The position numbers and the translations under genes were made by a program. A stretch of DNA of 48,818 bases from Candidatus Uhrbacteria bacterium. GTDB lineage: Bacteria > Patescibacteriota > Patescibacteriia > 2-12-FULL-60-25. The notes beneath the pieces are model-generated. The model was not told where the DNA came from and searched no databases. It was given only the letters and a program-made list of their open reading frames with translations. The stretch lies in assembly GCA_903829075.1 (NCBI GenBank), contig CAIKOH010000041.1, positions 1 to 48,818 on the forward strand. The letters run 5' to 3'. Position 1 is the first letter of the stretch, and each line of letters starts with the position of its first letter. Below are positions 14,575 to 29,123 of the stretch, piece after piece.

Positions 14575-15060
14575 CTACGCGATTTTCAGTATTCTCACCC
14601 AGAACACCAGCAAAATAAGCTCGATGAGGAGCATTAGCAAATTCAATCCTTCTGTTGAAGGGTTCATCCAGCCTGCCGCGAGAAGAAAATTGAGACTCAG
14701 GAATGCGGCTACGAGGCAGGAAAAGATTCCGACGAGAATAATGATCGATTTGAAGTTCCCGGATGGTCCTGTCGCAAACAGGAGGGCGGTAAGAGCGAGA
14801 CCGAGCCCGGTCAGGACCTCTCCCCATTGGACGAGAGATCCGAAGGTGCCCGCGTGTGCGGATGCGAAGGTGAGGATTGAATGCACATACCAGTCATGGG
14901 GATTTTTTCCTTGAAAGGCCGTCAACGTTTTTGACATCGTGTCCGGAAACGTTCCGGAACGAAGCTTTTCAATGCCTGCGCCTAACCATTCGTAAGCAAT
15001 GACGAGTTGAATGAGAAGGAGAAACCAGATAGAGGTGACGGTGTTGAGAATGATTTTCAT
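14575..15060 (-). CDS. DoxX-like membrane protein
   Basis: This 161-residue protein has about four membrane segments and the general pattern of the DoxX/DoxD family. It has an N-terminal AYEWLGAGIEKLRSG, a central VQWGEVLTGLGLALTALLFATG, and a C-terminal NFLLAAGWMNPSTEG. Relatives include quinone-linked thiosulfate or thiol oxidoreductase subunits, but many have no known role. It follows nrdG by 21 bases, yet has its own -10-like box (TATTAT) 7 nt before the ATG. Confidence 0.7.
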   Translation of the reverse strand: MKIILNTVTSIWFLLLIQLVIAYEWLGAGIEKLRSGTFPDTMSKTLTAFQGKNPHDWYVHSILTFASAHAGTFGSLVQWGEVLTGLGLALTALLFATGPSGNFKSIIILVGIFSCLVAAFLSLNFLLAAGWMNPSTEGLNLLMLLIELILLVFWVRILKIA

Positions 15061-15081: not shown

Positions 15082-15783
15082 TCATGCGCGTACGCTGATG
15101 TGCAGCCCGGGTTGATCCTCGCGAATGGACGCGGCCACAGCTTCTAGGTCGATGCGCGCAGATTGAGCCAGGTTTGATACCAGAGTTTTTTCATAGCGGA
15201 GATCTTGCAGCGCATAGGATTCTCCGGCGTGAAGTTGTCGGGCGATGGCTTTAAGATCATCGGCGTTGTGGATGGTAGAGTAGACAGTCGTGCGAAATTC
15301 GTGGGAGATGTTGCTCGCTTGAATGAGATCAAAGGTTTTACGGCAATTGTTGATGACGTTTTGCTGTCGTAGGCCGATGATGTCACCGTAGTGTTTCCAG
15401 GTGTGCTTAATATCCATGGCAAAGAAGTCGACCAGTTTTTCTTTGATTGTCTGTTCGATCAAGCGGGGATGCACGCCGTTCGTGTCGAGCTTGACCCGCA
15501 GGCCGAGTGCCCGAATTTTTTTAATGAATTCAATCAGATCGGCCTGCATGGTCGGTTCGCCGCCTGTGATACACACGCCTTCGAGGAAGTTCGCGCGTTT
15601 TTTGATGGATTCGAGAACGGTTTGCTCCGAGAGCATACGTGTTGTATCTAGAGGTTTTGCCGGAATAAGTTCTGGGTTGTGGCAATACGCGCAGCGAAAT
15701 GGGCACCCTTGTGTGAATATGACCGAGCAGATCACGCCAGGGTAATCGATGAGGCTGAGAGGTTGATAGCCGGCGATGAGCAT
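15082..15783 (-). CDS. nrdG: anaerobic ribonucleotide reductase activating protein (radical SAM)
   Basis: This enzyme installs the glycyl radical on NrdD. The radical SAM cluster motif is CPFRCAYCHNPEL (CxxxCxxC) near residue 30. It is followed by the GGEPTMQ strand (VCITGGEPT) and a Rossmann-like remainder, all in a typical 233-residue length. It begins 2 bases after the nrdD stop in the same direction, in TATG context, so the pair is one operon. It falls in the NrdG2 type, which opens with GYQPLSLIDYPG. Confidence 0.93.
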   Translation of the reverse strand: MLIAGYQPLSLIDYPGVICSVIFTQGCPFRCAYCHNPELIPAKPLDTTRMLSEQTVLESIKKRANFLEGVCITGGEPTMQADLIEFIKKIRALGLRVKLDTNGVHPRLIEQTIKEKLVDFFAMDIKHTWKHYGDIIGLRQQNVINNCRKTFDLIQASNISHEFRTTVYSTIHNADDLKAIARQLHAGESYALQDLRYEKTLVSNLAQSARIDLEAVAASIREDQPGLHISVRA

Positions 15784-15785
15784 AG

Positions 15786-17924
15786 TTACGCAGTTACCGT
15801 TTCGCGCACAGATGTTTTCGTTGTTTCGATCTGGGCCACGGTTCCAAGGGCGTATTCGGTTCGTTCCTTGTATTCACCTTTTTTGCCCTTGTTCCACTGA
15901 TCCACTGGACGGAAGTAGCCCACGATGCGCGACCAAACTTCGCACTCGGTCTGACAAGTCGGACAGTTTTTGATCTCCCCGTTGAGATAGCCGTGCTTTG
16001 GACAGATGCTGAAAGTTGGGGTCAAGGTAAAATACGGCAGGTGATATCCATACGCGACTTTTTTCACAAATGATGCGCAGGTTTTCCAGTCTTGAACGCG
16101 CTCGCCGAGGAACAGATGGAGCACGGTGCCTCCGGTATATTTTGTTTGCAGGCTGTCCTGATGATCGAGCGCGGAGAGCGGGTCATCCGTGTGCGAAACC
16201 GGGAGGTGTGTTGAATTAGTGTAGTACGGTTCGCTTTGCGAGCCGGCTTGGATGATGCCTGGGTAGCGCGTTTGATCTTCCTTTGCGAAGCGATAGGTGA
16301 CGCCTTCGGCTGGCGTGGCCTCAAGGTTGTAGAGGTTCCCGGTCTCTTCTTGGTACGCGAGCAAACGTGCATTCATGAAATCAAGAATTTCTTTGGCGAA
16401 CGCCGTTCCTTCTTCGGTTGCAAGCGATTGACCCATGAGGTTAAGGCAGGCTTCATTCACACCATTTAAACCGATCGTGGAAAAATGGTTGCGCAAAGAA
16501 GGGAGATAGCGCTTCGTGTACGGCAACAGTCCACGATCAATGTTGTTTTGAACCACCTTGCGTTTAATTTCAAGTGATTCCTTGGCGATATCCATCAGCT
16601 TTCCAAGACGCGACAGGAACGCCTCTTTTGTTTTTGAGAGATAGCCGATGCGCGGCATGTTGATGGTGACCACGCCGATACTGCCGGTCATTTCTCCTGA
16701 GCCGAACAGTCCGCCGCCGCGTGCGCGTAAGACGCGCAGATCGAGCTGCAAGCGACAGCACATGCTGCGCACATCGCTCGGGTTCAGCGATGAGTTGATG
16801 AAGTTTTGGAAGTAGGGGATGCCGTATTTAGCGGTCATTTCAAATAACAGTTTGGCATTTTCTGTGTCCCAGCGAAAATCTTTGGTGACGTTGTAGGTGG
16901 GAATCGGGAAGGTGAAAACACGTCCTTTGCTATCGCCGTTGGTCATCACTTCGATGAAGGCTTTGTTGACCAGGTCCATTTCATTTTGACACTCGGCATA
17001 CGTGAATGGCATGTCTTTGCCGGCAATGATCGGATGTTTTTCTTTCAGATCATCCGGACACATCCAGTCAAGAGTGATATTGGTGAACGGTGTTTGCATA
17101 CCCCAGCGTGACGGAACATTCAGGTTGAACACGAACTGCTGGATGCCTTGGAAAATCTGTTCATAGGTCAACTTATCCTGCTTCACGTAGGGAGCGAGCA
17201 TGGTGTCAAACGAGGAGAATGCTTGTGCGCCCGCCCATTCATTTTGCAGCGTGCCAAGAAAGTTCACCATCTGTCCAAGCGCGGTCTCAAAATGTTTTGG
17301 TGGAGCGGATTCGACCTTTCCTGGGACGCCGTTGAACCCTTCTTCCAAAAGTTGACGCAAGCTCCAGCCAGCACAGTATCCAGAGAACATACCGAGATCA
17401 TGCAGGTGAAAATCACCTTCGGTGTGTGCTTCGCGAACCTCCTTTGGATAGACAAAGTTGAGCCAGTAGTTGGCCGTGATTTTTCCTGACGTGTTTAGAA
17501 TCATACCGCCAAGCGAGTAGCCTTGATTGGCATTTTCATTCACACGCCAGTCAGATTGGTTCACGTATTCGCCGATGGTGTGATCCACATCCACCACGAT
17601 TTTGCTGAGATCGCGAAGCTTGGTGTGATGTTCGCGATAGACGATGTAGCTGCGTGCGGTCTTGAAGTAGCCGGAGGTCATTAAGGAAAATTCCACGATG
17701 TCTTGAATCTCTTCAACCGTGACTTCGGGGCGTGTCTTTCCAAGTTTGTTGACGAACATGACGATGGTTTCCGTGATGCGACGAACTTCTGGGGCTGCGA
17801 GTTCTTGGGTGGCATCAGCTGCGCGCTGTAAGGCGTTTGCGATGCGTTCTTTTTCAAATGGAACGTGTTCGCCGGTGCGTTTGACGACTTCTGGCATGGA
17901 AGCGACGGAGGTGTTGGTGGTCAT
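15786..17924 (-). CDS. nrdD: anaerobic ribonucleoside-triphosphate reductase
   Basis: This is a class III reductase that makes deoxynucleoside triphosphates without oxygen. The 712-residue protein opens with an ATP-cone (VVKRTGEHVPFEKERIAN). It has the large catalytic barrel and near the C-terminus the zinc site CPKHGY plus CPTC. The glycyl radical loop follows as RIVGYFRPVDQWNKGKKGE, with the radical Gly in IVGY. Substantial residue motifs include DFHLHDLGMFSGYCAGWSL near 190. It is the only nucleotide reductase in the window and points to an anaerobic or microaerobic life. The start in TATG context lies below a small terminator. Confidence 0.96.
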   Translation of the reverse strand: MTTNTSVASMPEVVKRTGEHVPFEKERIANALQRAADATQELAAPEVRRITETIVMFVNKLGKTRPEVTVEEIQDIVEFSLMTSGYFKTARSYIVYREHHTKLRDLSKIVVDVDHTIGEYVNQSDWRVNENANQGYSLGGMILNTSGKITANYWLNFVYPKEVREAHTEGDFHLHDLGMFSGYCAGWSLRQLLEEGFNGVPGKVESAPPKHFETALGQMVNFLGTLQNEWAGAQAFSSFDTMLAPYVKQDKLTYEQIFQGIQQFVFNLNVPSRWGMQTPFTNITLDWMCPDDLKEKHPIIAGKDMPFTYAECQNEMDLVNKAFIEVMTNGDSKGRVFTFPIPTYNVTKDFRWDTENAKLLFEMTAKYGIPYFQNFINSSLNPSDVRSMCCRLQLDLRVLRARGGGLFGSGEMTGSIGVVTINMPRIGYLSKTKEAFLSRLGKLMDIAKESLEIKRKVVQNNIDRGLLPYTKRYLPSLRNHFSTIGLNGVNEACLNLMGQSLATEEGTAFAKEILDFMNARLLAYQEETGNLYNLEATPAEGVTYRFAKEDQTRYPGIIQAGSQSEPYYTNSTHLPVSHTDDPLSALDHQDSLQTKYTGGTVLHLFLGERVQDWKTCASFVKKVAYGYHLPYFTLTPTFSICPKHGYLNGEIKNCPTCQTECEVWSRIVGYFRPVDQWNKGKKGEYKERTEYALGTVAQIETTKTSVRETVTA

Positions 17925-20223: not shown

Positions 20224-20451
20224 TTACTTTCCCGATGTAAACCACGCGAGGACAAAGGCTCCCACGCCGAGCAAGAATGCGCCGATCCCATGTTTAAGGT
20301 GAATGGTGGAGGAGTCGCTCAGATAACCTGGGAGCCACATCGGAAGCGCGTCTGCCGGCGTTCGCCAGTAGACGATGGCAAGAATGATCAGAAGAACACC
20401 AACAACCATGCTGATAATGGAAAGAAGGTTTTTTGAAGAAGAGGCAGGCAT
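20224..20451 (-). CDS. small two-helix membrane protein
   Basis: A 75-residue protein with hydrophobic segments IISMVVGVLLIILAIVYW and IGAFLLGVGAFVLAW joined by a polar loop (RTPADALPMWLPGYL). No family recognised. The start has TATG context on the minus strand and the longer open frame to 20598 runs into the divergent ccdA gene, so ATG 20451 is preferred. It ends 1 base from the stop of the convergent hydrolase. Confidence 0.6.
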   Translation of the reverse strand: MPASSSKNLLSIISMVVGVLLIILAIVYWRTPADALPMWLPGYLSDSSTIHLKHGIGAFLLGVGAFVLAWFTSGK

Positions 20452-20499
20452 AGAAAGCGTCAGATGATGTGGTTGAATGATACGGATATGATCGGCTGT

Positions 20500-20528
20500 T
20501 TGAACGTGACCGTCAAGCGGGGTATACT
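20500..20528 (+). promoter_or_regulatory. promoter of the ccdA cluster
   Basis: TTGAAC (20500-20505), exactly 17 bp, then TATACT (20523-20528). The ATG follows after 11 nt, so the leader is about 4-5 nt and cannot hold an SD. Confidence 0.7.
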
Positions 20529-20539
20529 GTGTATAAAAT

Positions 20540-21253
20540 ATGCTACTTTTCTTTTTTGCGTTGTTAGCCGGAGCGATTACGGTTGCGGGACCCTGCATCT
20601 TGCCGCTCCTGCCCGTTATTCTTGGAACCTCGATTGTGAAGAGTCATCCAGCGAGACCATTGTTCATCATTCTTGGATTTGTACTTTCGTTTGTGGTTTT
20701 GGTTTCGGTGTTTGCTTTTTTACGTCAGGTGATTCCGGTGTCTGCGCAGACGATCCGCACCATCGCGATCGTGCTGATTGGATTGTTTGGAGTCACCATG
20801 TTGTTTCCGCAGATTCAAGAAGCGATTTTTTCGCGCGTTGGAACAATTATCGGGCGATTCGCGCCACGGGTTGAAGCGGGACAGGGGGGATTGGTCAGTG
20901 GATTTATGTTGGGGACGTCGCTTGGATTTGTCTGGACACCCTGTGCTGGTCCGGTACTCGGTTCTATTCTCACGCTGGTCGCGAGTCAGCAAAACATCCC
21001 ACAGGCACTCGGGCTTCTGGGTGCGTATGCGATTGGTGCGGCCGTTCCTATGTTGGCGATTGCGTATGGTGGGCGGGCAGCGGTTACGCGAGTTCGCGCT
21101 CTGTCTCAGCATGCGGTGACGATTCAGCGCGTGTTTGGCGGTCTGATGGTGTTGGTTGCGTTTGGGATGGCTTTTGGGTTAGATGCCTCGATTCAGACGA
21201 GTTTGCTTGAGCACGCGCCCTGGTTGTTTCTAAATCGTTTTTTAAATCTATGA
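20540..21253 (+). CDS. ccdA: CcdA/DsbD-type transmembrane thiol transporter
   Basis: This protein carries reducing equivalents across the membrane from cytoplasmic thioredoxin. The 237-residue protein has six hydrophobic segments and the two conserved redox cysteines: C19 in VAGPCILPLLPVILG and C135 in VWTPCAGPVLGSIL. The next gene, a membrane thioredoxin, overlaps it by 4 bases (ATGA) and is the natural partner. Together with the FMN-binding-like and apbE genes this forms a probable export route for electrons. Confidence 0.92.
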   Translation: MLLFFFALLAGAITVAGPCILPLLPVILGTSIVKSHPARPLFIILGFVLSFVVLVSVFAFLRQVIPVSAQTIRTIAIVLIGLFGVTMLFPQIQEAIFSRVGTIIGRFAPRVEAGQGGLVSGFMLGTSLGFVWTPCAGPVLGSILTLVASQQNIPQALGLLGAYAIGAAVPMLAIAYGGRAAVTRVRALSQHAVTIQRVFGGLMVLVAFGMAFGLDASIQTSLLEHAPWLFLNRFLNL

Positions 21254-22326
21254 CCTCTGCGACAAAAATAGGTATCGGTTTTTTTGCGATTATTGTGGTT
21301 GTCGCGTTGTGGCTATCGACCCTTGGATCCACTCCAGCCCCTCTCCGTCCAGCGGAAAGCGTTTCAACATCTACTTCAGCAGACGCGACGACCTCTTCAA
21401 CGCTCCCGGTGTTAAGTGGTGCAGTATCTGATTTTCCGGGGATCGTTCGTTGGTGGAATACGCCAAATAATCAACCGCTAACCGCTAACGGACTTACAGG
21501 GAAGGTGGTCTTGGTAGATTTTTGGACCTATTCCTGCATCAACTGTTTGCGTACACTACCGTTTGTTCGTTCGTTGCAATCGCAGTACGCGGATAAGGGG
21601 TTGGTGATCATTGGGGTGCACACGCCTGAGTTTGCTTTTGAAGCGGATCCGACGAACGTCGATGCAGCGATCAAGAAATTAGGGTTGACGTATCCGATTG
21701 CGCTCGACGCAAACTATCAAACTTGGAATGCGTATCAAAATCAGTACTGGCCGGCAGAATATCTGTTTGATCGTCAGGGACGGTTGCGTCATACGCAATT
21801 TGGAGAAGGAGATTATGATGTGACAGAGCAAGCGATCCGTTCTTTGTTGAATGAAGGAACGTCGACGGTCGCTCTTGGAGCTACGGTTCCTGTGCCTGTG
21901 ATGCCGAATTTTTCTTTGATTGGGACGAATGAAACCTATTTTGGTTTGGCACGTGGACAGGCTTTTGAAAATGCAGGAGGGCCGCATGCGCAGGCGACGC
22001 AGTACACAGCAATTCAGCATCCATCAGCGGATCAGTGGACGGCTGGCGGGACATGGAGTTTTCAGAATGAATACGCTGAATCGCTGGCGCAGAACAATGT
22101 GTTTCGATTTAATGTGCAGGCGAGTCAAGCGCATCTTGTGCTCTCTTCAAGTGATGGGAAGGACAAAAGAATTGAGATATCGATTGATGGAGAACCGTCG
22201 CAAACCCTGACGATCAACGCCCCGACGTTGTATACAGTTGCGCGATTCACGAAACCTGGTCGTCATGAGATCGAGATCAAGATCGATGATGCTGGTGTGC
22301 GATTTTATTCAGCAACATTTTCGTAA
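21250..22326 (+). CDS. membrane-anchored thioredoxin-like protein with DipZ-type C-terminus
   Basis: A 358-residue protein: a membrane anchor at about 7-24, a Ser/Thr-rich linker, a TlpA/AhpC-type thioredoxin domain about 65-205, and a C-terminal beta-rich domain resembling that of mycobacterial DipZ. The redox pair is C96 and C99 in DFWTYSCINCLRTLPF. A cis-Pro region is seen as YWPAEYLFD. It would accept electrons from CcdA on the outer face and reduce exported proteins or peroxides. Translation is coupled to ccdA through a 4-base overlap. Confidence 0.9.
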   Translation: MTSATKIGIGFFAIIVVVALWLSTLGSTPAPLRPAESVSTSTSADATTSSTLPVLSGAVSDFPGIVRWWNTPNNQPLTANGLTGKVVLVDFWTYSCINCLRTLPFVRSLQSQYADKGLVIIGVHTPEFAFEADPTNVDAAIKKLGLTYPIALDANYQTWNAYQNQYWPAEYLFDRQGRLRHTQFGEGDYDVTEQAIRSLLNEGTSTVALGATVPVPVMPNFSLIGTNETYFGLARGQAFENAGGPHAQATQYTAIQHPSADQWTAGGTWSFQNEYAESLAQNNVFRFNVQASQAHLVLSSSDGKDKRIEISIDGEPSQTLTINAPTLYTVARFTKPGRHEIEIKIDDAGVRFYSATFS

Positions 22327-22409
22327 ACGGCGGCGTCTTGACGCACCGACGACAGATTGTTCCGCGTACTATATAGTGCTTCCGAAACTTTTTTCATTTT
22401 ATCTATTCT

Positions 22410-22880
22410 ATGGATCAACACGCCCCGGCTTCATCGCAACCTTCTTCAACACCGAGCTCTTCTTCAAGCAAAACCTCTTTGACCATTGGAATTATTTTGA
22501 CGGTTGTGGTGGTTGGAATCATCGCTGAACTTGCGTGGCATGGAACGCCAAGTGCGACGCAGGGTTCCACGGCAAGCACCGGTTCTTATAAAGATGGTTC
22601 CTACGATGCGATGGGGACCTATCGGACTCCCGGTGGCCAGGAACAGATTGATGTGAAGGTGACGTTGCAGAACAATCTGATCACTGATGCAACCGTGACG
22701 CCAGAAACAACGCATCCGATTTCGCTACGCATGCAGAATACGTTTGCCGCGAATTTCAAGCCGCTCGTGATTGGAAAAAATATTAACGATGTTCAGCTTT
22801 CCGCCGTGTCCGGTTCATCCTTGACCCCCATGGGTTTTAACGACGCCTTGAATCAAATCAAACAGCAGGCAAAGATGTAG
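22410..22880 (+). CDS. membrane-anchored FMN-binding-domain-like protein
   Basis: The 156-residue protein has a Ser-rich N-terminus, one membrane segment (SLTIGIILTVVVVGIIAEL) and a small outer domain. The domain has YKDGSYDAMGTYRTPGGQEQIDV, beta strands, and C-terminal AVSGSSLTPMGFNDAL. The last piece occupies the place of the (S/T)GAT flavinylation motif of FMN_bind domains, but reads SGSS-LT. Directly downstream is apbE, the enzyme that attaches FMN to such motifs, which supports the call. TATG context at the start. Confidence 0.8.
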   Translation: MDQHAPASSQPSSTPSSSSSKTSLTIGIILTVVVVGIIAELAWHGTPSATQGSTASTGSYKDGSYDAMGTYRTPGGQEQIDVKVTLQNNLITDATVTPETTHPISLRMQNTFAANFKPLVIGKNINDVQLSAVSGSSLTPMGFNDALNQIKQQAKM

Positions 22881-22883
22881 GTG

Positions 22884-23759
22884 ATGACCACTTTTTCTTT
22901 TGAAGCGATTGGGACGCATTGGCAGATCGATATTCAGGATCTGTTGACGATGGATCAGTCGCAGGGATTGCAAGAACGCATTCACGCGCGCATCGAGGAA
23001 TTCGATCGCGCGTTTTCGCGTTTTCGTGATGATTCATTGGTGATGCGTATGTCGCGGGAAGCCGGAACGTATCCCTTGCCGGCGGACGGCCGGTCAATGT
23101 TTGATTTGTATCAACGAATTTATCACGAAACAAATGGTGCGGTGACACCGTTGATTGGCTCGCTGCTCGTCGAAGCCGGATACGACGCAAAATATTCCTT
23201 GATTCCTGGAGAGTTGCATCATCCGTCAAAATGGGAAGATATTTTGGACTACAAGTTTCCTTTATTGACCTTGAAGCAACCAGCGCTCTTAGACGTGGGT
23301 GCGCTTGGAAAAGGGGAGCTGATCGACATCGTTGGTCGTCTCATTGAGGACGCTGGCTGTCGATCGTTTTGTGTGAATGCCGGTGGTGATATTTTCTATC
23401 GATCTGCGACCGATCAGCCACTGCGTGTTGGGCTCGAGCATCCGCAGAATTTTTCGCAGGTGATCGGTGTGGCGGAAGTTCGAAATCAAAGTCTGTGTGG
23501 TTCGGCAGGAAATCGACGGGCGTGGGGTGAGTTCCATCACATCATGAACCCGCATACGTTGTCATCACCGAAGCACATCCTTTCCGTCTGGACCGTCGCA
23601 GAAACGACGCTGTTGGCTGATGCGATGGCGACCTGTTTATTTTTTGTACCTGCGTCAAAACTCTTGCAACAACATCTATTTGAGTACGTGATTTTGTATC
23701 CGGATTTCTCCGTGGAGTATTCAAAGGGGTGGCCGGGGGAGATGTTTGTTAGCGCGTAG
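22884..23759 (+). CDS. apbE: FAD:protein FMN transferase
   Basis: This enzyme uses FAD to attach FMN covalently to a Thr or Ser of an exported protein. Motifs follow the family: FSRFRDDSLVMRMS near the N-terminus, LDVGALGKGELID (the GAxxKG motif), FCVNAGGDIFYRS, SLCGSAGNRR, and the C-terminal VAETTLLADAMATCLFF. No signal peptide is evident, unlike periplasmic ApbE of proteobacteria. The start is ATG 22884, or GTG 22881 one base past the upstream stop. It is the partner of the preceding gene. Confidence 0.93.
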   Translation: MTTFSFEAIGTHWQIDIQDLLTMDQSQGLQERIHARIEEFDRAFSRFRDDSLVMRMSREAGTYPLPADGRSMFDLYQRIYHETNGAVTPLIGSLLVEAGYDAKYSLIPGELHHPSKWEDILDYKFPLLTLKQPALLDVGALGKGELIDIVGRLIEDAGCRSFCVNAGGDIFYRSATDQPLRVGLEHPQNFSQVIGVAEVRNQSLCGSAGNRRAWGEFHHIMNPHTLSSPKHILSVWTVAETTLLADAMATCLFFVPASKLLQQHLFEYVILYPDFSVEYSKGWPGEMFVSA

Positions 23760-27668: not shown

Positions 27669-28040
27669 ATGCAAATTAAGGGAACAGTTGTCCATGGTAA
27701 GGAGATGTCGCGTACGTTGGGATATCCAACGGCAAATCTCGCCTACATTTCACCAGAGACCTTGAAGAAAGGGATGTGGGCCTGTGTGGTGCGTTTGGAG
27801 AACGACGAACGTGTATTTCGTGGTGTTGCCGTGGTCGGCAAGTGGGATCAGGCGGATGGATATCCGGGGATCGAGGTTCATCTGCTCGACTTTTCAGATG
27901 ACCTATATGGAAAAACCCTCCTCGTCGAACCACGTGTGTTTTTGCGGGACCTGTTTGCGTTTTCGCAGATGCAGGAACTCGTGAAGCAGATTCAGATAGA
28001 TGTTCAGCAAACACGAGAGAAGATCGCTCTTCACGAGTAA
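27669..28040 (+). CDS. stand-alone riboflavin kinase
   Basis: This enzyme phosphorylates riboflavin to FMN. The 123 residues match only the C-terminal kinase half of bacterial RibF: GTVVHGKEMSRTLGYPTANLA with the G-x-PTAN metal/ATP motif. VVGKWDQADGYPGIEVHLLDF and YGKTLLVEPRVFLRDL follow. The FMN adenylyltransferase half is absent, so FAD must be made by another protein or taken up. It is 4 bases upstream of riboflavin synthase and thus in one operon with it. Confidence 0.9.
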   Translation: MQIKGTVVHGKEMSRTLGYPTANLAYISPETLKKGMWACVVRLENDERVFRGVAVVGKWDQADGYPGIEVHLLDFSDDLYGKTLLVEPRVFLRDLFAFSQMQELVKQIQIDVQQTREKIALHE

Positions 28041-28044
28041 CCCT

Positions 28045-28653
28045 ATGTTCACCGGAATCGTTCAAGGAAAATTCCCTCTTCAGTCTCTTCAGCAAGAGAA
28101 GGGATTGTTGCATGCAGAGATCGACATGGGATCGCTCAGCCAAGATCTTAACATTGGTGCTAGTGTCGCGATCGCGGGCGTGTGTTTGACGGTGGTGGAG
28201 ACCCGCGGTGCTTGCGTACGTTTTGATGTGATACAGGAGACGCTTGATAAGACGACGCTGGGAGGTCTGCGCGTTGGACAGCTCGTCAACGTGGAGCGTT
28301 CTGCCCGCGTGGGTGATGAGATCGGGGGTCATCGCGTGTCTGGTCATGTGACGGGGACGGTTACTGTTCGTGAACGCAAGGAAAGCGTGAATAATTGTGT
28401 GCTAACGTTCGCATGTGATCCGAGTTGGATGGAGCACCTTCTTCCCAAAGGATTTGTGGCGCTTGATGGCTGTAGTCTGACGATCGTCGATGTGGGATCC
28501 GACTGGTTCACTGTCCATCTCATTCCAGAAACTCTGCGGGTCACAACATTCGGTGAGCGGCGGGTGGGTGACAAAATAAACCTCGAATTCGATCCTGAGA
28601 CACAGGCGATTGTCGCAACTGTGAAGCGCTATCTTGAAACAAAACATTTATGA
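28045..28653 (+). CDS. ribE: riboflavin synthase alpha subunit
   Basis: This enzyme dismutates two lumazine molecules to riboflavin. The 202-residue protein shows the internal duplication of the family: MFTGIVQGKFPL at the first repeat and HRVSGHVTGTVTV at the second. GVCLTVVE and GCSLTIVDV are matching strands of the two lumazine-binding barrels. The start at ATG 28045 is in TATG context; a longer in-frame start at 28000 lies inside the kinase gene. It overlaps the next gene by 4 bases. Confidence 0.95.
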   Translation: MFTGIVQGKFPLQSLQQEKGLLHAEIDMGSLSQDLNIGASVAIAGVCLTVVETRGACVRFDVIQETLDKTTLGGLRVGQLVNVERSARVGDEIGGHRVSGHVTGTVTVRERKESVNNCVLTFACDPSWMEHLLPKGFVALDGCSLTIVDVGSDWFTVHLIPETLRVTTFGERRVGDKINLEFDPETQAIVATVKRYLETKHL

Positions 28654-29123
28654 ATTCCAACACATTTCAGCCGCTGAATGGAAAAGGTTTTCGTTTTGCT
28701 GTGATCGCTGCGCGTTTTAACGCAGAATTGACCGATGCGATGCTCGCGGATTGCGTGGCGGCTTTACGTGCCTGCGGCGTGACCTCACAGGATGTCGCAA
28801 CGTATCGTGTGCCGGGTTCATTTGAACTGCCGGTCGCGGCAAAGGTTTGTGTTGACATGGGCCGATTTGACGCCGTGATCTGTCTTGGGGTCATCATCAA
28901 AGGAGAGACCACGCATGATCAGTACATCGCGAATTCGGTTGCAAACGCTCTAAACGAGATTGCTGTTCAAGAAAAAACGCCAGTCGTGTTTGGCGTACTG
29001 ACGACGAATGATCGAGCGCAAGCAGAGGCGCGTGCACTCGGTGGAGAGAAAAAAGGGTATGAAGCCGGCATGTCCGCGGTCGAGATGGCGATCCTCACGC
29101 GTGAGATGAAGGGCGTTGTTTGA
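28650..29123 (+). CDS. ribH: lumazine synthase (6,7-dimethyl-8-ribityllumazine synthase)
   Basis: This enzyme condenses the ribitylaminouracil and dihydroxybutanone phosphate precursors to lumazine. Of 157 residues, the active-site parts are visible: AARFNAELTDAM, VPGSFELPVAAKV, and CLGVIIKGETTHDQYI with the catalytic His. The C-terminal basic-acidic GYEAGMSAVEMA is typical. It is coupled to ribE. No ribA, ribB or ribD is present nearby, so precursors come from genes elsewhere or from outside. Confidence 0.95.
   Translation: MNSNTFQPLNGKGFRFAVIAARFNAELTDAMLADCVAALRACGVTSQDVATYRVPGSFELPVAAKVCVDMGRFDAVICLGVIIKGETTHDQYIANSVANALNEIAVQEKTPVVFGVLTTNDRAQAEARALGGEKKGYEAGMSAVEMAILTREMKGVV

Follow-up and report, generated by a model that had tools for sequence, protein, structure and literature searches.

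The window (the whole 48,818-nucleotide stretch of DNA that was analysed) is contig C41 of a Candidatus Uhrbacteria genome of 1.04 Mb, which is 98% complete and distributed over 79 contigs. Four genes lie contiguous and co-oriented on its forward strand at positions 20540–23759. The first, ccdA (20540..21253), encodes a CcdA (DsbD_TM) protein (PF02683, 2.4e-7), and the second (21250..22326) encodes an anchored thioredoxin (Trx) with a DipZ C-terminal domain. They are followed by the genes of an anchored FMN_bind protein (22410..22880) and an ApbE-type FAD:protein FMN transferase (22881..23759; PF02424, 1.2e-38). The families match and the key residues are present, which confirms the gene row that an earlier note had read at this locus. 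Within the thiol pair (CcdA and Trx) the two genes share 4 bp, within the flavin pair (FMN_bind and ApbE) they follow each other directly, with 0 bp between them, and the two pairs are separated by a gap of 83 bp (22327..22409, forward strand). Positions 22349–22377 in this gap give a weak promoter-like match by consensus alone (the regional count of such matches is 13, compared with 7.8 in shuffles, sd 2.5), and the two pairs may be separate transcripts. A small ORF on the reverse strand (20224..20598), which encodes a protein with two transmembrane (TM) segments, is divergent from ccdA and was not counted in the module. As listed, it runs into the start of ccdA, and its true start is probably internal. 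A homologue of this ORF adjoins FMN_bind and ApbE genes at locus L176 (5516–9199), where the row consists of FMN_bind, ApbE, the homologue, UppP, a DsbA-like ORF (identified by eye) and DsbB (PF02600).

CcdA holds only two cysteine residues, Cys19 and Cys135, both of which are kept in 11/11 family members. Trx has a redoxin domain, in which the CxxC motif is CINC (residues 96–99), and a DipZ tail (PF17991, 1e-24). The Mycobacterium tuberculosis DipZ sequence 2HYX matches it over both the thioredoxin and the tail domains (phmmer, E 2.9e-63). The features of DipZ, namely a CcdA membrane domain, a CxxC thioredoxin domain and the PF17991 tail, are thus all present and spread over two genes. M. tuberculosis DipZ and the fused DipZ proteins of other Patescibacteria have the same three domains but, unlike them, the window version is split into two overlapping genes, which encode the putative first and second halves. 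The genome search located CcdA in the host genome at the window locus only. DipZ-type Trx is present in 13 of 57 relatives, and CcdA is adjacent to it in seven and fused to it in one of the 11 same-family loci that were read. No FMN_bind or ApbE gene was found near CcdA-Trx in these 11 loci. Elsewhere, fused DipZ genes lie beside MsrA/MsrB-like genes (L190) or beside an MsrB-like gene, three genes past RnfD/NqrF (L133), the Msr identities having been assigned by eye. Because the pair recurs without flavin genes and fused DipZ occurs next to Msr-like genes, CcdA-Trx, a split DipZ, fits an independent role in thiol repair. Such a pair would move thiol electrons outward, from the thioredoxin of the cytoplasm to disulfides, with methionine-sulfoxide reductases as a possible further target.

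For the flavin pair, we used a phylum sample of 380 genomes, 59 of which contain an ApbE match. The long, close form of ApbE, which we designated type A, occurs in 17 of these 59 genomes, with a cut that was chosen by eye from the match list. The window ApbE belongs to the type-A branch, and its FMN_bind partner belongs to a divergent branch of FMN_bind proteins that goes with it. Against PF04205, the window FMN_bind protein scores 21.6 bits in hmmscan (curated cut-off, 22) and 22.5 bits in the genome search. Type-A FMN_bind proteins mostly fall under the Pfam cut-off; at E 0.01, PF04205 matches 12 of 36 FMN_bind relatives and misses the other 24. The window protein has one N-terminal TM-like helix, no Cys and the sequence SGSSLT at residues 134–139, a motif that is conserved in alignments. 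SGSSLT aligns with SGAT, with Ser instead of Ala as the third residue, and Ser137 is aligned with the Thr of SGAT. A PDB profile search with the FMN_bind alignment found no chain, and a fold search was therefore used. The AlphaFold model contains a confident domain (pLDDT about 97), and the best Foldseek match of this model in the PDB is the FMN_bind domain of 8p2a (E 0.012, which is weak; probability 0.99), followed by RnfG (E 0.013, also weak; probability 0.92). NqrC/RnfG and the multi-flavinylated FMN_bind domains of 8p2a share the domain fold and, by alignment, the position of the flavin site, whereas the window protein is short, anchored and single-domain and has a low sequence score. Based on this alignment, the flavin site is probably Ser137.

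All catalytic motifs of ApbE (DxGxxxKG, HHI and ADxxxT) are present in the window protein, as DVGALGKG at residue 138, HHI at 219 and ADAMAT at 246. Twelve solved ApbE sequences match it, including 4xgw at E 7e-14. Periplasmic ApbE proteins usually, but not always, have an export signal or lipobox. Neither was found on the window ApbE, which lacks a hydrophobic N-terminus (the E. coli Ftp control passes). By the plain hydrophobicity rule that we used in place of SignalP, 124 of 125 ApbE proteins are leaderless, and the sole one that passes, at L061, probably does so through an upstream overlap. By the same rule, 110 of 111 FMN_bind proteins pass the cut-off for a hydrophobic N-terminus and look exported or anchored; 13 of them have a lipobox-like site. 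Leaderless ApbEs are known elsewhere, with cytosolic substrates (review PMC12052999). The missing leader, the departure of SGSSLT from the canonical SGAT and the PF04205 score under the cut-off might together indicate a pair that is not a working carrier, either because the ApbE and the exported FMN_bind protein never come together or because SGSSLT stays unmodified. We consider this very unlikely, because both genes are intact with their key residues present, and the same pairing and motif are kept in dozens of divergent genomes, which argues for selection on FMN_bind–ApbE. In the reading that we prefer, ApbE would attach FMN to the anchored FMN_bind protein, probably at the serine designated above, and the flavinylated protein would act as an electron carrier on the outer face, ahead of a presumed terminal acceptor.

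ApbE proteins close to that of the window are rare among its relatives, and a close pair was found only in G015. The window ApbE is 52–59% identical to ApbEs of other families and 38% identical to that of G015, which belongs to the same family. This greater nearness to other families hints at horizontal transfer of the gene. In the ApbE tree, the sister of the window protein is that of a Magasanikbacteria locus, L105 (SH-aLRT 93). Three loci from Actinomycetota records (L172, L178 and L183) have a type-A ApbE with RnfD/NqrF and group with Patescibacteria on this tree.

A named survey collected 80 type-A loci, 79 of which have ApbE in the ORF calls. In 72 of the 79 loci, ApbE is directly preceded by a same-strand FMN_bind gene, and in 42 it is directly followed by RnfD/NqrF. 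Profiles, motifs and this recurring pairing show that the earlier note was right about the gene identities and about ApbE and FMN_bind as flavin transferase and substrate. No CcdA/Trx gene directly adjoins the type-A pair in any of the 79 loci, and fused DipZ occurs within five genes of it in one (L133). Among the loci surveyed, the thiol pair adjoins the flavin pair in the host genome only. The gene-neighbourhood survey across Patescibacteria that had been proposed as a check on the row therefore found it not to be conserved at either the thiol loci or the flavin loci, and we rejected one conserved four-gene module. The single electron-export module of the earlier note is retained in its gene identities and its ApbE/FMN_bind pairing and loses its thiol–flavin linkage, as the thiol pair recurs in its own family without flavin genes and the flavin pair recurs across the phylum without adjoining CcdA-Trx. 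UppP is near the type-A pair in three of the 79 loci (p about 0.08 by a rough estimate). A literature search, with thin coverage of subscription papers, found no description of type-A pairs in Patescibacteria.

Contig C75 of the same genome carries a complete FMN_bind–ApbE–RnfD/NqrF operon, the second flavin pair of the genome, which includes its sole PF03116 protein (two matches in one frame). The combination of FMN_bind, ApbE and an RnfD/NqrB–NqrF fusion is that of the NQR/RNF-like flavinylation clusters described from Actinobacteria and CPR (eLife 2021, PMC8238504). The C75 operon fits this layout, as do the majority of the window pair's type-A relatives, whereas the window pair itself differs in having no adjoining RnfD/NqrF, SGSSLT in place of SGAT and a leaderless ApbE. 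The absence of an Rnf-type donor nearby, as had been claimed, holds for the window, in which we found neither an RnfD-type gene nor an RnfD/NqrB–NqrF fusion. It does not hold for the genome, where the supposedly missing donor exists on C75, albeit with its own FMN_bind and ApbE. A third FMN_bind gene, with the SGAT motif, was observed on contig C40 (L007, 1321–2235), a 7.1-kb contig without ApbE.

Full RnfD/NqrF is present in 14 of the 17 type-A genomes and in 47 of the 363 others (Fisher p 9e-10, relatedness ignored). Among 28 genomes whose type-A pair lacks an RnfD/NqrF neighbour, 24 have no full RnfD/NqrF anywhere, with the caveat that MAGs may be incomplete, and this donor therefore appears not to be obligatory. 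The other four have it elsewhere, in each case within a complete FMN_bind–ApbE–RnfD/NqrF operon of the C75 kind. Mapped on the ApbE tree, the presence of RnfD/NqrF as neighbour requires about 14 changes. Electrons for the window FMN_bind protein would most likely come from NADH via a membrane donor of the RnfD/NqrF type and not from thioredoxin. Because FMN_bind and ApbE are also encoded on C75 itself, the RnfD/NqrF fusion of this contig may serve that pair only, and we give the use of this fusion as the donor to the window protein slightly less than an even chance. At L068 (5028–7801), FMN_bind and an ApbE of lower similarity adjoin the gene of a protein that resembles ferric reductases and contains FAD/NAD domains (PF01794, PF00175); other loci of this kind give partial matches to the RnfD/NqrF profiles.

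The four contiguous, co-oriented genes could also be a single export chain, in which the FMN of the FMN_bind protein receives its electrons from CcdA by way of the DipZ-type Trx. DsbD-type flavinylation clusters, of which 285 were described (eLife 2021, PMC8238504), likewise bring together DsbD/CcdA, a thioredoxin-like protein and ApbE, and the operational feature of that study, a DsbD/CcdA gene in a flavinylation-associated cluster, is found here with CcdA two genes from FMN_bind. However, the usual partners in the published clusters are DUF3570 and DUF4266, neither of which is among the Pfam matches of the window cluster, so that a DUF4266-like CXC partner is missing from these matches; the substrate in the window is an FMN_bind protein without Cys, and the adjacency occurs in one genome. 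DipZ-type Trx is commoner in type-A genomes (8/17) than in the others (57/363; p 0.003, or 7/16 and p 0.009 without the host genome; relatedness ignored), an excess that could stem from a common lifestyle or from a genuine link. The fused DipZ three genes past RnfD/NqrF at L133 also speaks for such a chain. In contrast, genomes that lack the RnfD/NqrF neighbour have CcdA/DsbD no more often (11/25) than those that possess it (12/25), and a thiol branch that replaces a missing RnfD/NqrF is unsupported. With the pairs adjacent in the host genome only, a thiol-to-flavin wire lacks the support of conservation, and feeding of the flavoprotein by the thiol branch, as the earlier note had suggested, appears quite unlikely to us.

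A DoxX-family gene lies directly before FMN_bind or after ApbE in 17 of the 34 loci without an RnfD/NqrF neighbour, some of which are near contig ends where that neighbour may be cut off, and in none of the 45 loci with it (p 3e-8, which overstates independence because the loci share ancestry). PF07681 is matched by 16 of the 17 genes. The association seems recurrent, since DoxX requires about six changes on the ApbE tree, and L105, the tree sister of the window ApbE, has a DoxX-family gene next door. According to PMC7907618, which cites Nambi 2015, a DoxX protein of M. tuberculosis is part of a membrane thiol oxidoreductase complex. These observations suggest that type-A pairs without RnfD/NqrF might receive their electrons from a DoxX-family membrane protein or some other donor, and that the window pair might descend from such a version. 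On the other hand, no member of the pair-adjoining DoxX family was found within the window, the pair-adjoining DoxX proteins have no invariant Cys, and five of the 25 genomes tested lack adjacent DoxX, RnfD/NqrF and CcdA alike. For the window pair, this origin is conceivable but unlikely. The window ORF at 14575–15060 was considered as the missing DoxX and rejected, as it has no Pfam match and an hhalign probability below 1%. Should DoxX prove to be a genuine alternative partner, the association would give a testable role to a poorly understood membrane family.

Taken together, the parts are ordinary and, as judged from their sequences, the flavin pair is real. We favour, with a probability of roughly 0.6, two independent envelope redox units that happen to adjoin. 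As electron donor of the window pair, we place most weight on RnfD/NqrF, followed by a DoxX-like or other protein and then by Trx. It is also conceivable, but improbable in our view, that type-A FMN_bind and its leaderless ApbE form a portable carrier that has swapped donors several times, using NADH-fed RnfD/NqrF in most lineages, DoxX-family membrane proteins in others and the CcdA-thioredoxin thiol branch in the host genome; if true, a minimal genome would here contain a covalent flavin carrier that is fed by thiols. The wire between thiols and flavin would be of consequence only once demonstrated biochemically, and we find the partner swapping, the leaderless ApbE and the divergent FMN_bind protein missed by Pfam more interesting. 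An earlier study depicted Patescibacteria as markedly poor in extracytosolic flavinylation (PMC8238504). In our phylum sample, whose genome set differs from that of the cited study, a relative of ApbE at E 1e-8 or better, or else a full RnfD/NqrF fusion, is encoded in 97 of 380 genomes. A divergent FMN_bind protein with a leaderless ApbE could slip past surveys based on Pfam and leaders.

Two further loci in the window were observed. At 15082–17924, an anaerobic ribonucleotide-reductase-like ORF (15786–17924) adjoins an activase-like ORF, both assigned by sequence only. About 4 kb past ApbE, at 27669–29123, a riboflavin kinase gene (PF01687) is followed by genes that, as judged by sequence, resemble those of riboflavin synthase and lumazine synthase, and relatives of the latter two lie near the flavin pair of the Magasanikbacteria locus L107.
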